DNA from: Halomonas sp. YLGW01 | GTDB lineage: Bacteria; Pseudomonadota; Gammaproteobacteria; Pseudomonadales; Halomonadaceae | DNA: 64,000 nucleotides | Direction: 5' to 3' | Assembly: GCF_014840935.1 (NCBI RefSeq) | Contig: NZ_CP062005.1 | Coordinates: 2,294,001-2,358,000, forward strand | Shown here: positions 41,755-46,505 of the stretch, piece by piece | Layout of the letters: the number at the start of each line of letters is the position of its first letter | Numbering within the stretch: the first letter of the stretch is position 1 | Notes under the pieces: model-generated | Databases searched by the model: none | Told to the model about the DNA's origin: nothing | The model's input: the letters and a program-made list of their open reading frames with translations, nothing else | Program-made: the position numbers and the translations under genes

Positions 41755-43197
41755 CTAGAGTTCGATGCACTGCTGGTAGACGGGAATCTCGGCATCGATG
41801 CCGGTGGTGGCCAGGGCCTGCTGCAAGGCCTTCTGGGCCGTGGGCTCGCCGTGTACCAGGTAGAACCGCGGGTGATCGCGAAAGGCGCCGGCCCAGGCGA
41901 TCAGCTGAGTCTGCCCGGCATGCGCCGAGAAGCCACCGATGGTATGGATGTGCGCCCTCACCTTCAGGTCCTTGCCCAGCACCCTGAGGTGGTCGGCGCC
42001 ATCGACCAACCGCCTGCCATTGGTGCCCGCGGCCTGGAAGCCGACGATGACGACCCGCGTACTGGCATGCTCGATGTTGTAGCGAAAGTGATGAAGGATG
42101 CGGCCGCCGTTGCACATCCCGGCACCGGCGATGATGATCGCCCCGCCCCGGATGCGGTTGATGGCCATGGATTCCTCGACGTTGCGGGTCAGACGCAGCC
42201 CGGGCAGATACTGCTCGGGATCGCCGTGCGCCGCCACGTTGAGCGCGTGCAGGTCCTCGGGATCGAGAGTCGAACGACGGCGTTCGTAGAGTTCGGTGAC
42301 TCGGATCGCCATCGGGCTATCGAGGAAGATGCGCTGCTGGCGTAGCCGGCCCTGGTGATAGAGCATGCTCAGGTGATAGAGAATCTCCTGGGTTCGGCCG
42401 ATGGCGAAGGCGGGAATCAGCACGTTGCCGCCATCCTCGAAGGCCGCCTCGAGGACCTGGGCAAACTCCTCGATGGTCTCCTTGAGCGGCCGGTGATCGC
42501 GGTCGCCATAGGTGCTTTCCATCAACACCAGGTCGGCATCACGCTGGGTCTCCGGATCCTTCATCAGCGCCGAGTCGGGATTGCCGAGATCCCCGGAAAA
42601 CACCAGGCGCCGGGTGCGTCCTCCCGAGGGAATCGCCAGCTCGACGATGGCCGAACCGAGGATATGGCCGGCATCGTGATAGACCAGCTCGACGCCGCCG
42701 GCGAGCGTTGCCGGCTGGCCGAAGTGATGGGTCTGGCACAGCTTGAGGGTGCGCTCGACGTCGTCGATGTCATAGAGCGGCTCGAGGAGCGGCTTGCCGG
42801 CCCGATGCCGCCAGCGGTTCTCCCACTCGACATCCTTGGCCATGATGAAGGCGGAGTCGGCCAGGGTGATCTCGAGCAGCGCCTTGGTGCCCGGTGTACA
42901 GTGAATGGGGCCCCGGTAGCCCTCGCGCACCAGCTTGGGCAGGAGCCCGCAGTGATCCAGGTGGCCGTGTGAGATCACGACTTCATCGAGGGTCTCGGCC
43001 AGGTGGCCGAAGGGCTCGGCATTGACGCGTTCAGCATCCTCACCTCCCTGATGTATGCCGCACTCGAGCAGCAGACGACAGGCAGCCGAGCCCTCGCCTG
43101 GCCCGTCGCCACTGCCTTCCTCATGTCCATCTACTTCGATCAGATAGCGCGAGCCGGTCACCTCACCGACCGCACCCAGAAACGTCAGTGTCGACAT
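41755..43197 (-). CDS. MBL-fold beta-CASP RNA nuclease
   Basis: The 480-residue protein has a metallo-beta-lactamase core with ISHGHLDHCGLLP (His77, His79, Asp81, His82), YHDAGHILGSA, the FSGDLGNPDSAL segment, and beta-CASP motifs (ESTYGDRDH, FAIGRTQEIL, GFSAHAGQ). This is the family of RNA processing exonucleases (RNase J-like, CPSF73-like, YsdA-like). Compared with the family, residues 25-38 form an extra Gly/Glu/Asp-rich loop. Its target in bacteria is not established. It lies between the sulfur operon and gpgS, all leftward; the gap to gpgS is 54 bp, so it could be transcribed with it. Confidence 0.88.
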   Translation of the reverse strand: MSTLTFLGAVGEVTGSRYLIEVDGHEEGSGDGPGEGSAACRLLLECGIHQGGEDAERVNAEPFGHLAETLDEVVISHGHLDHCGLLPKLVREGYRGPIHCTPGTKALLEITLADSAFIMAKDVEWENRWRHRAGKPLLEPLYDIDDVERTLKLCQTHHFGQPATLAGGVELVYHDAGHILGSAIVELAIPSGGRTRRLVFSGDLGNPDSALMKDPETQRDADLVLMESTYGDRDHRPLKETIEEFAQVLEAAFEDGGNVLIPAFAIGRTQEILYHLSMLYHQGRLRQQRIFLDSPMAIRVTELYERRRSTLDPEDLHALNVAAHGDPEQYLPGLRLTRNVEESMAINRIRGGAIIIAGAGMCNGGRILHHFRYNIEHASTRVVIVGFQAAGTNGRRLVDGADHLRVLGKDLKVRAHIHTIGGFSAHAGQTQLIAWAGAFRDHPRFYLVHGEPTAQKALQQALATTGIDAEIPVYQQCIEL

Positions 43198-43251
43198 CAG
43201 GCCTGCCTCCGACTGCTGGGATCATGCCTTCAGCATAGTCGGAGGTTGCCG

Positions 43252-44472
43252 CTAAACCTTGCCCTGATTGTCGAGCTCCACCGCCGCGTGCATGCGCTCG
43301 AGCAGGTCGGGAATCGCCGCCTGTACCCGGTTCCAGCTGGGGATGAAGGGCTTGTCACGGGGGTTGTCGAGGAAGGCCGCGCCGGCCTCCATGATGTTGG
43401 CGGCGAACAGTTCCACCGCCTGCTCCTCGCTGTGCCGGTCGAGCTTCAGGCCATTCATGGTGGCATCGTTGTCGTAGGCCTCGATCAGGTCCAGTGCGAT
43501 GCGGTAGTAGGTCGCCTTGATGGTACGGAAGGTCTCGGCGTGGATCTCGATACCCAGGGTCGCCAGCTTGCGATACAGCGCCTTGGCGATATCCAGGCTC
43601 ATGCGGTTGAGCCCTGTCGAGGCATCCTCGGCAGAGACCGTCTGATGCTTATGGTCGTAGACATCGGCGATGTCCACCTGGCAGAGCTGCTTGGTGGAGT
43701 AGTTGCGATGTACCTCGGAGAGCACGCCGATCTCCAGCCCCCAGTCGCTGGGGATGCGGATGCCGTCGAGCACGTCGGTGCGCATCGAGAACTCCCCGGA
43801 CAGCGGATAGCGGTAGCTGTCGAGGTAGTCGAGATAGGGCAAGGGGCCATAGATCTTCTTGAGCGCCCGGATCAAGGGTGTGACCATCAGCCGCGAGACC
43901 CGGCCATTGAGCTTGCCCTCGGCGATGCGGGAGTAGTAGCCCTTGCAGAACTCGTAGTTGAACTGCGGGTGCGCCACCGGATAGATCAAGCGCGCCAGGA
44001 GGCCGCGATCATAGGTGACGATGTCACAGTCGTGCAGGGCGATCGCCTCGGTGCGGCGCGAGGCCTGGACATAGCCGCCGCAGAACCAGACGTTGCGCCC
44101 CTTGCCGAGCTCCTGGGGCGAGATGCCCTCCTCGGCCAGCTCCGCATCCAGTGCCTTGAGCCTGGGGCCATCGTTCCACAGGATACGATGGTGCTGGGGC
44201 AGCTTGGCGAAGAACTCTCGAGCATGCAGGAACTGCTCCCGGTCGGCCCGGTCCAGCCCGATCACGATCTCGGAAAGATAGGGCACCTTGGCCAGTTCAT
44301 CGACGATATGGGAGAGCGCCGGGCCTTCGAGCTCGGAATAGAGCGAAGGCAGGATCAGCCCCATCGGGCGACGCCGGGAGAAACGCACCAGGTCGGCCTC
44401 CAGGGCCTCCACCGGGCGCCGCATCAGGTTATGGAAGTTGGTGATGATGCCGTTCTGGTAGAAGTCGCTCAT
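43252..44472 (-). CDS. gpgS: Glucosyl-3-phosphoglycerate synthase
   Basis: Transfers glucose from an NDP-glucose donor to 3-phosphoglycerate, giving glucosyl-3-phosphoglycerate, the precursor of the compatible solute glucosylglycerate. The 406-residue cytoplasmic protein matches the GT81 family from the start (ITNFHNLMRRPVEALEADL). It has LPSLYSELEGPALSHI, the metal-binding ALHDCDIVTYDRGLLARLIYP (DxD), and the C-terminal acceptor region. GAGGAG precedes the ATG, and the ATG overlaps the stop of the phosphatase gene (ATGA), so the two are coupled. Confidence 0.93.
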   Translation of the reverse strand: MSDFYQNGIITNFHNLMRRPVEALEADLVRFSRRRPMGLILPSLYSELEGPALSHIVDELAKVPYLSEIVIGLDRADREQFLHAREFFAKLPQHHRILWNDGPRLKALDAELAEEGISPQELGKGRNVWFCGGYVQASRRTEAIALHDCDIVTYDRGLLARLIYPVAHPQFNYEFCKGYYSRIAEGKLNGRVSRLMVTPLIRALKKIYGPLPYLDYLDSYRYPLSGEFSMRTDVLDGIRIPSDWGLEIGVLSEVHRNYSTKQLCQVDIADVYDHKHQTVSAEDASTGLNRMSLDIAKALYRKLATLGIEIHAETFRTIKATYYRIALDLIEAYDNDATMNGLKLDRHSEEQAVELFAANIMEAGAAFLDNPRDKPFIPSWNRVQAAIPDLLERMHAAVELDNQGKV

Positions 44473-45341
44473 CCGCGGCTCTCCTCATCGTTGCTCAGGG
44501 TGGGGAGCTCGTCTCCCCACCAATGGTCGATCCCCTCCGCCCAGCCCGAGGGACCGGCTCGAAGCGCCAGGTATTGATGAGGGTTGGTCAGGCTGATGGT
44601 GTGGCCATGATGGCCCGGGATCAGCACGGCGCGATCCACGGCCTCGAGCAGCGGCACATCATTGGGGCCATCGCCAAGCCCCAGCGTCTCGGGCAGACGG
44701 CCGCGCAGTGCCCGATAGCGCTCCACTAGCCAGCGCACCCCGTCCCCCTTGTCGAGCCGCCCCATGGCATGCCAGAAGCGACCGCCCCTCATCAGGCACA
44801 GGCCGTCCGCCTCCAGGGCCTGACGAAAATCCGCCAGCGCCGCCTCGCTGTCGTCCCAGATCAGGGGTTCGCAGCCCTCCCGCACCCGCGCCAGCCGCGC
44901 CCGATGCTCCGAAAGGCCGGTCAGGGCAATGATGTCATCGATGGGCATCTCACCCATGCCACGAAACCGCACGCCCAGCCGATCACGCAGCACCCCCAGG
45001 CGCGTGCGCAGGAAGCCGATATCGATGCCTGGCGTCTTGATCGCCAGGCCATCGACATGGGTCGGATCGCGATCCAGACGCGCATGCTGCCAGGCCTGTG
45101 GCAGACCAATGACCGCACCATTCTCGGCTATGAAGGGGGTATCTCGAAGCCCCAGTTCCTGACGCAGCGGCATCAGCTCGGCGCGGGTCTTGCTGGTGAC
45201 CGGGATCACCGTCACGCCGACATGGCGCAGACGCTCGAGCCAGGGCGCGGCCGGCTGCCACTCGTAGCTGTCATGATCGAGCAGGGTGCCATCGAGATCG
45301 GTAAAGACCAGGCGGGGCGGTGAGGACGGGACGGAGGACAT
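44469..45341 (-). CDS. Glucosyl-3-phosphoglycerate (MPGP-family) phosphatase
   Basis: The 290-residue protein is a HAD-IIB phosphatase of the mannosyl-3-phosphoglycerate phosphatase family. It has VFTDLDGTLLDHD (nucleophile Asp15, acid Asp17), VTSKTRAEL (motif II) and GDGPNDVPLLE (motif IV). Family members act on mannosyl- and glucosyl-3-phosphoglycerate. Because gpgS follows directly with an ATGA overlap and no mannosyl synthase is present, I infer glucosyl-3-phosphoglycerate as substrate. It is first in the operon, about 36 bases behind a sigma-54-like promoter. Confidence 0.9.
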   Translation of the reverse strand: MSSVPSSPPRLVFTDLDGTLLDHDSYEWQPAAPWLERLRHVGVTVIPVTSKTRAELMPLRQELGLRDTPFIAENGAVIGLPQAWQHARLDRDPTHVDGLAIKTPGIDIGFLRTRLGVLRDRLGVRFRGMGEMPIDDIIALTGLSEHRARLARVREGCEPLIWDDSEAALADFRQALEADGLCLMRGGRFWHAMGRLDKGDGVRWLVERYRALRGRLPETLGLGDGPNDVPLLEAVDRAVLIPGHHGHTISLTNPHQYLALRAGPSGWAEGIDHWWGDELPTLSNDEESRG

Positions 45342-45726
45342 GGACGATACCTGCTGAAGGGCATGATCTTGCCGATATACAAGACCCTAGCACGCGGCGT
45401 GCCAGACGACCGCATCCGGCATGGTCTCTGGTCGCGCAGCGGGCGACGGCGATACAGGCGCCCGCTTCAGGCACCAAGATGAGGCACTCATGCCAGGGCG
45501 TGACGACGCCTTGCACCATCATGTTTCATCGCCCACCGATGCGTCGCCAAGTACCAGAAAAGGAAGGCGTCTGCGATGATAAAAATCCGATCATCACGGC
45601 ATCAACAAGACCGTCAATAAGCCCATCACAAAGAGCAGGGATGCGCCATATTACCGCTGGCCACTGCCCGCTTATTTTCGCTATCATTCGGTATCGTCAA
45701 CCGCCTTCACTGTCGAGAAATAGCGA
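45342..45726. other. 385-bp divergent region, glucosylglycerate operon to gntK
   Basis: The left part holds the sigma-54-like promoter and two possible activator sites for the leftward operon. The right part (45540-45726) is AT-richer and should carry the gntK promoter; a GATGAT / ATCATC dyad sits near 45576-45596. I see no gene in it. Confidence 0.55.
45389..45404 (-). promoter_or_regulatory. Sigma-54-like promoter of the glucosylglycerate operon
   Basis: On the minus strand the sequence TGGCAC-GCCGC-GTGCT matches the -24/-12 consensus TGGCAC-N5-TTGCA with correct spacing and the essential GG and GC present. Transcription would start near 45377, giving a leader of about 36 bases. Two weak NtrC-like dyads lie upstream at 45470-45486 and 45512-45528. 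Confidence 0.55.
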
Positions 45727-46254
45727 ATGAAAAACTCGTCACTTACTCTGCTTGTCATGGGCGTCTCCGGGTCGGGAAAATCTCATATCGGCTGCCGTCT
45801 TGCCGAGGCAATACATGCCGAATTCATCGATGCGGATGATCATCACAGTGAGGCCAGCATCGCCAAGATGGCCAAGGGCGAGCCGCTGACCGACAGCGAC
45901 CGGCAGGACTGGCTGCTGACGCTTGCCGACCTGTACCGCGACTACCAGCAACAAGGCAAGGATGTGGTGATCGGCTGCTCGGCGCTCAAGCACCGCTATC
46001 GCGATGTCCTGCGACAGGGTGCGCCCGAACTGAAGATCCTCTATCTCGACGGTTCCCGAGAGGTCTTGCTTGAGCGTCTGGGCGGACGCACTGGCCACTT
46101 CTTCGCCGGCGAGCACATGCTGGACAGCCAGTTGGCTGATCTTGAAGTACCGGAAGATACGGAAGCCATCCGACTGAATATTCGTCAGTCACCCGATATC
46201 ATCGTGGATAAATTCCTGAAGAAAATCGGCATTAAAGCCGACAAACATCAGTAG
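45727..46254 (+). CDS. gntK: Gluconokinase
   Basis: Phosphorylates gluconate to 6-phosphogluconate, feeding the Entner-Doudoroff or pentose phosphate path. The 175-residue protein has the P-loop MGVSGSGKSHIG (11-22), FIDADDHHSEASIAKMAKGEPLTD, and the IGCSALKHRYRDVLR lid region of the gluconokinase family. Its codon use is somewhat less GC-biased than neighbours. Only a weak GAGA site precedes the ATG. It converges with the TRAP operon on the opposite strand, whose predicted substrate is a sugar acid, so the two may form one functional unit. Confidence 0.94.
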   Translation: MKNSSLTLLVMGVSGSGKSHIGCRLAEAIHAEFIDADDHHSEASIAKMAKGEPLTDSDRQDWLLTLADLYRDYQQQGKDVVIGCSALKHRYRDVLRQGAPELKILYLDGSREVLLERLGGRTGHFFAGEHMLDSQLADLEVPEDTEAIRLNIRQSPDIIVDKFLKKIGIKADKHQ

Positions 46255-46267
46255 GGAATTCCTGAGA

Positions 46268-46288
46268 ATGCGCCAACATATGGCGCAT
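46268..46288 (+). other. Short hairpin after gntK
   Basis: ATGCGCCA and TGGCGCAT pair around a 5-base loop 13 bases after the gntK stop. A C-rich tract, not T, follows, so this is not a standard intrinsic terminator. Confidence 0.4.
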
Positions 46289-46505
46289 ACCCTCCCTCCC
46301 CCACAACCCCTTATCACTTATCATCACGCCTTTCAGTTTCCTTTCCATCTCAGCGCCATGGCCGCCTCATATGCCGTCAATGAGTCGAATAATTCCCAGA
46401 GAGCTACTGAGCACTTCGTTACCCTACCTGGCTCCCTCAAGGGGTGTGCCATTCCTTCCATTACATACGAGACCCGCCTCGACTCGGTGCGCCTGAACGA
46501 CAAAC

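Follow-up and report, generated by a model that had tools for sequence, protein, structure and literature searches.

Which signal switches on the putative glucosylglycerate operon of Halomonas sp. YLGW01, and through which promoter it does so, is the question raised by the 64,000-nucleotide stretch of DNA analyzed here (contig NZ_CP062005.1, positions 2,294,001 to 2,358,000; referred to as the window). The answer that we consider highly probable, judging from the sequence and its conservation, is that gpgP-gpgS is transcribed from a σ54 (RpoN) promoter, that NtrC activates this promoter via two dyads, and that the arrangement acts as a nitrogen-limitation switch for glucosylglycerate. The first gene of the operon (44469..45341, minus strand, 290 amino acids) encodes a HAD-IIB phosphatase of the mannosyl/glucosyl-3-phosphoglycerate phosphatase family (GpgP-like), which reaches 253.7 bits with TIGR01486 (cutoff of 164.75) and remains under the cutoff of the narrower model NF001216 (328.3 versus 353). 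Its relatives in the PDB are 1xvi and 3ztw, and the closest solved ones are annotated as mannosyl-3-phosphoglycerate phosphatases. The second gene (43252..44472, minus strand, 406 amino acids) overlaps the first by 4 bases and encodes a glucosyl-3-phosphoglycerate synthase-like protein (GpgS) with 65 to 96% identity to 10 chosen relatives. This protein matches the NCBI equivalog model NF040724 over nearly its full length (353.1 bits; E value of 1.8e-105), below the cutoff of 700, and the solved GpgS 7p5l weakly, and it is therefore treated here as GpgS-like and not placed inside the equivalog. Because of this score, we infer glucosylglycerate as the operon product from family membership, backed by the available part of a report that Chromohalobacter salexigens, a member of the same family as the window genome, makes this solute (PMC3308980).

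The intergenic region upstream of the operon is bounded by a divergent gene for a GntK/IdnK-type gluconokinase (45727..46254, plus strand; TIGR01313, 167 bits versus a cutoff of 113.75), which lies outside the operon. At the other end, between gpgS and the next gene (43198-43251), there is a perfect 9-bp inverted repeat, CCTCCGACT...AGTCGGAGG, with no clear T run, which may end or attenuate the operon. The next gene (41755-43197, minus strand) encodes a beta-CASP metallo-β-lactamase-fold protein whose best NCBIfam match is a type VII CRISPR Cas14 model, at 334 bits versus a cutoff of 800; the protein is probably a common RNase-like one that automatic annotation could easily misname. An Rfam search of 43000-46300 returned no match.

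The sequence-only reading of this region had claimed a minus-strand −24/−12 element with correct spacing 48 bp before the phosphatase-gpgS operon, preceded by two NtrC-like dyads at distances usual for NtrC, and both features can be read directly from the DNA. The σ54-type element, TGGCAC-GCCGC-GTGCT (45389..45404, minus strand; TGGCACGCCGCGTGCT from 45404 to 45389), agrees with 10 of 11 consensus positions and fits TGGCAY-N5-NTGCW, with the GG and GC dinucleotides 10 bases apart as expected of a σ54 promoter; it reads GTGC at the site of the consensus TTGC. Its end is separated by 47 bases from the phosphatase ATG at 45341. If the C of the GC dinucleotide is taken as −12, transcription would start at about 45378 (45377 in the earlier reading), giving a predicted 5′ untranslated leader of 37 bases from +1 to the base before the ATG (45342..45378, minus strand). 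Further upstream, at enhancer distance, are two 17-bp NtrC-box-like sites spaced 42 bp apart: dyad 1, TGAAAC-ATGAT-GGTGCA (45512..45528, minus strand), is centered at about −142 and matches at 10 of 12 arm positions, and dyad 2, TGCCTC-ATCTT-GGTGCC (45470..45486, minus strand), is centered at about −100 and matches at 9 of 12. These are the two dyads of the earlier reading, written here as they appear on the promoter strand. The predicted course of events, from NtrC binding and activation through an RpoN- and NtrC-dependent transcription start to the product and its physiological purpose, would be as follows. When nitrogen is short, NtrB would phosphorylate NtrC, and phosphorylated NtrC on the two dyads would loop onto the closed RpoN-polymerase complex and open the promoter. 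Transcription of gpgP-gpgS would then lead to glucosylglycerate, an anionic, nitrogen-free osmolyte, which would lessen the cell's need for glutamate and ectoine.

The single genome offers modest evidence for a promoter. In the window, TGGCAC-N5-GTGCT is found once (0.05 expected), and the canonical pattern with one mismatch allowed occurs 4 times (3.26 expected). Across the 3.45-Mb genome, TGGCAC-N6-TGCW has 36 matches versus 11 for the reversed pattern, and a minority of the 30 matches retrieved have an open reading frame starting shortly after; elements of comparable quality are found in coding DNA, too. The pattern of half-box plus downstream element matches 18 times genome-wide, versus 1 for the reversed pattern. 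The argument for a promoter is carried by conservation across relatives.

To this end, we searched 58 genomes, including that of YLGW01, with the phosphatase; 41 had a match, and 30 loci were read (L001-L030). A GG-N10-GC element with 9 or 10 of 11 consensus positions lies 60 to 174 bases before the search match in all 20 loci from L001 to L020 and in L026 and L027, and no element at 9/11 was found in L021-L025 and L028-L030. Conservation of the GG and GC dinucleotides in close relatives had been set beforehand as a refutation test of the promoter, which passed it in all of L001-L020 and in all seven loci of the window's genus (our own included). When 20 loci were aligned to the window, the best-conserved 16-bp stretch of the 260 upstream bases was the element itself, with a mean identity of 0.83, compared with 0.58 and 0.63 for the boxes and 0.34 for the remaining upstream DNA. 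Within dyad 1, T1, G2, A3, A7, A10, T11, and the GTGC at positions 13 to 16 are identical in the window and in 6 other loci of the genus.

A second set of loci was collected by a scan with an 11-member GpgS alignment, using one genome per species and the best 80 of 588 loci, a choice that biases the set toward close relatives. Here we used a joint criterion, namely an element with at least 9/11 positions plus an NtrC box with at least 9/12 positions starting 45 to 220 bp upstream of the element; these thresholds were picked after seeing L001-L030 and then applied to the second set, which shares some genomes with the first (L091, L093, L094, and L099 versus L005, L015, L009, and L018). Among these best 80 of 588 loci, the pair was found within 1.7 kb before gpgS in 34. 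The reverse strand gave it in 1 of the 80, and none of 75 stretches taken downstream had it. Three of the 34 (L103, L156, and L159) were set aside as background, their matches lying inside the phosphatase frame. In the Halomonadaceae (L091-L101 and L105-L132), 31 of 39 loci carry the pair 880 to 1,120 bases ahead of gpgS, immediately upstream of the phosphatase gene, so that conservation of GG and GC held there also with the NtrC box added; the 9 joint matches elsewhere on both strands of 346 kb predict 0.003 per locus. The 8 misses comprise all five Kushneria loci and three Vreelandella loci (V. nanhaiensis, V. populi, and V. zhuhanensis), and four other Vreelandella loci carry the pair. The conservation of the pair is far beyond chance; the related loci share ancestry, and their counts are not independent events. 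In one of the Kushneria loci, that of Kushneria sinocarnis (L129), the operon looks split, since the end of the phosphatase gene and gpgS, otherwise adjacent, are about 825 bases apart. The expected place at 880 to 1,120 bases misses this locus, whose phosphatase gene is further off, and the pair was not found in its upstream DNA either.

The boxes also stand out when considered as such. An element with at least 8/11 positions is present in 32 of the 34 non-Kushneria Halomonadaceae loci, and the best box of these 32 reaches at least 9/12 in 31 (mean of 3.5 and maximum of 10 in shuffles that keep dinucleotides), at least 10/12 in 24 (mean of 0.49), and at least 11/12 in 7 (mean of 0.06), with a perfect box, TGCACCAAAGTGGTGCA, in Salinicola corii (L099). 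Box positions that were not scored agree with the E. coli NtrC box, given as TGCACCAnnnTGGTGCA in the available part of the publication (PMC8743547): of 52 promoters, 28 have A7 and 34 have T11, compared with 19% and 21%, respectively, under a plain shuffle. All 52 also have a purine at position 7 of the element, which likewise did not enter the score. These 52 promoters were drawn from 62 loci, with Kushneria and L021-L025 excluded and near-duplicates and loci below either threshold dropped. The 31 best sites cluster helically at a period of 10.5 to 11 (R of 0.52 to 0.57), a phasing that we do not lean on because related loci are not independent.

The regulators that such a promoter would need are encoded in the genome of YLGW01, with one match over the cutoff of TIGR02395 for rpoN and one over that of TIGR01818 for ntrC, the latter being over the cutoff in all 34 genomes searched, our own included. 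The presence of rpoN in this genome and of ntrC in it and its relatives, together with the conservation of the pair, supports the earlier proposal that RpoN and NtrC would control the operon. NtrC-like sites with at most 1 mismatch number 16 in the genome versus 2 for the reversed pattern, and several of the 15 retrieved are in coding DNA. A box plus element precedes both the NtrB-like histidine kinase gene adjoining ntrC and a gene for a periplasmic binding protein (Pfam Peripla_BP_5), which we take to be of the urea/amide type, and an ammonium transporter gene has an 11/11 element 214 bases upstream of it. On these grounds, the genome appears to use the grammar of box plus element at nitrogen genes.

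Two further elements were observed at other loci. At L038 (C1:1062949-1062964, minus strand), the element TGGCACGCTTATTGCT, with 11 of 11 consensus positions, stands just before rpoN and suggests that rpoN is autoregulated. L034 (C1:191453-191468, minus strand) is the σ54-like element TGGCACGAGCAGTGCA, roughly 520 bases beyond the point where the ntrC model stops matching an NtrC-family activator gene, the gene itself continuing somewhat further. No open reading frame of at least 100 amino acids starts within 300 bases after this element, and the stretch is rich in AACAACAACAAC. The arrangement resembles that of the CrcZ-type small RNA of Pseudomonas, which is driven by CbrB and RpoN; Rfam gave no CrcZ match at L034.

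Several other explanations of the region have to be weighed against these data. The 36 TGGCAC-N6-TGCW matches in the genome and the 18 versus 1 matches of half-box plus element could be taken to mean that the sequence upstream of gpgP is a chance match, but 31 of 39 loci have it at the corresponding position, where background predicts 0.003 per locus; this contradicts the idea, which we rejected as hardly credible. It is also very improbable that the element is in fact an inverted repeat, GGCACG-CCG-CGTGCT, that serves as the operator of a dimeric repressor or as a hairpin or terminator and resembles a −24/−12 element only incidentally. The 9-pair stem at 45386-45406 is indeed flagged as terminator-like (1 found versus 0.9 expected), and the dyad is kept in most of the same-genus loci read. 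Across 31 promoters, however, no more than 10 could pair the symmetric positions 6 and 12 (9 C-G and 1 T-A), whereas GG, GC, and the spacing hold in all 31 (GG and GC having been a selection criterion), and the upstream NtrC boxes would be left unexplained. As the symmetric positions are not kept across these promoters, an operator or hairpin in place of a promoter was rejected.

If a σ54 promoter is accepted, its main activator could still be another enhancer-binding protein of the NtrC family, and the signal could be the carbon/nitrogen ratio or stress. The genome does contain seven more ntrC-model matches of at least 250 bits, below the cutoff, but we regard this explanation as unlikely, given that the dyads match the NtrC box including its unscored positions, that the box is perfect in Salinicola corii, and that the same box precedes the NtrB-like gene of the window genome. 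Possible, though on balance doubtful, is that the main driver is a σ70-type or salt-responsive promoter further upstream, to which σ54 adds only under nitrogen stress. The glnA gene of E. coli is a precedent for tandem promoters, two overlapping σ70-like sites are found on the minus strand at 45617-45576 (the region has 4 such sites on both strands versus 0.5 expected), and Kushneria and the Enterobacterales keep the genes without the σ54 pair. These sites, however, score 9/12, and a second promoter would be compatible with NtrC-dependent transcription from the σ54 element.

Outside the Halomonadaceae, the combination of box and element is found in the Thalassolituus/Oleibacter/Bacterioplanes group (L133, L135, L137, L138, L139, and L158), whose operon has an extra first gene, giving the order glycerate kinase-gpgP-gpgS. 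The product of this gene in L138 matches D-glycerate 3-kinase structures (E value of 2.1e-21), and the five other loci of the group have genes for related proteins (56 to 98% identity) in this position; such a protein could salvage glycerate or provide 3-phosphoglycerate to the glucosylglycerate pathway. Relatives of this kinase-like protein are also encoded upstream of gpgP in L140, L162, L163, L167, and L169. In all six loci of the Thalassolituus group, an element with at least 9/11 positions lies 1,798 to 1,834 bases before gpgS, just before the first gene, and five of them have the joint match, L137 having the element with a best box of 8/12. In L135, L138, and L139, the distances from box start to element are 142 and 103 bases; they are 134, 102, and 71 bases in L158, and in L133 the distance is 141 bases. 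The reverse strand of the six loci gave no joint match, and L133 has one additional forward-strand match, inside gpgS.

In the Enterobacterales, the pair occurs somewhere upstream in 2 of 25 loci (0 on the reverse strand), in L156 inside the phosphatase frame and in L164 (Pantoea) considerably upstream of the phosphatase gene, 2,408 bases before gpgS. When the element was relaxed to 8/11 in a scan reaching at most 4 kb upstream per locus, matches were found on the forward versus reverse strand in 4 versus 3 of the 25 Enterobacterales and in 14 versus 12 of 49 loci overall; the 12 of 49 from the reverse strand mean that these relaxed matches carry little weight. Nothing convincing was found in Alloalcanivorax (3 loci), Marinobacter (2 loci), L153, L162, L163, L167, and L169. 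The Alloalcanivorax elements at about −346 (−344 in L103) lie inside the phosphatase frame and were not counted, and the boxes in Alteromonas L167 and Neptunicella L169 lie inside glycerate-kinase-like frames and were dismissed as coding coincidence. In Pseudohongiella L163, an 11/12 box stands just before the glycerate-kinase-like gene with no clear element in between. The pathway does not need this control, as the pair is missing in Kushneria, some Vreelandella, Marinobacter, most Enterobacterales, and other distant loci. We consider it reasonably likely that the core nitrogen regulon of at least two groups of marine and halophilic Gammaproteobacteria includes the choice of osmolyte, with NtrC and RpoN directly switching on glucosylglycerate in the Halomonadaceae and in the Thalassolituus group, and that Kushneria and the Enterobacterales either lost this control or never acquired it. 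The two groups were perhaps wired up separately, since their promoters precede different first genes (gpgP versus glycerate kinase).

The enhancer sites of glnAp2 lie at about −140 and −108. Both are described as high-affinity sites in the portion of the literature available to us (PMC3870243). The window promoter is like enterobacterial promoters of the glnAp2 type in having a −24/−12 element with 10-base spacing and, upstream, 17-bp NtrC boxes, whose form is given as TGCACCAnnnTGGTGCA in the accessible part of the source (PMC8743547). It differs from them in that its target is osmolyte synthesis and not nitrogen uptake or assimilation, and in that its boxes are imperfect. Hence, this kind of NtrC/RpoN promoter is already known, and osmolyte synthesis is the unexpected target.

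The link between nitrogen and glucosylglycerate that the first reading had invoked is in print for other bacteria, as far as the available parts of the sources go. Glucosylglycerate pools under nitrogen limitation are reported for Erwinia chrysanthemi, Synechococcus, Dinoroseobacter shibae, and mycobacteria, systems that have in common with the window operon the solute and the predicted trigger. Under nitrogen limitation, glucosylglycerate can replace glutamate as a counter-ion, and low-nitrogen media seem to favor it (PMC11009771); D. shibae prefers it when nitrogen is limiting (PMC9062515), and nitrogen-starved mycobacteria accumulate it (PMC6608630). In their accessible sections, the texts on these systems deal with the solute pool or the enzymes and do not describe an NtrC/RpoN promoter for gpgS. 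In C. salexigens, from the same family as the window genome, glucosylglycerate was reported from low-salinity conditions or an ectoine mutant and was not detected at high salinity, an absence that disfavors a simple salt role, and the available part of this report does not describe nitrogen regulation of this minor solute (PMC3308980); three other Chromohalobacter species (L096-L098) carry the pair. The literature searched, which covered few subscription papers and in part only excerpts, yielded no report of NtrC/RpoN control of glucosylglycerate synthesis.

A swap of nitrogen-rich osmolytes for glucosylglycerate has been reported in several organisms, and a regulator for this swap was not found in the partially available literature searched. 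A conserved NtrC/RpoN promoter would connect nitrogen sensing directly to solute choice, in a way open to testing. Predicted to switch by this route are the Onishia, Chromohalobacter, and Salinicola loci examined, most Halomonas, 4 of 7 Vreelandella, and 5 of 6 loci of the Thalassolituus group, and predicted not to do so are Kushneria and Pantoea/Erwinia. Ectoine production may also be affected, in that nitrogen supply could divert carbon to glucosylglycerate.
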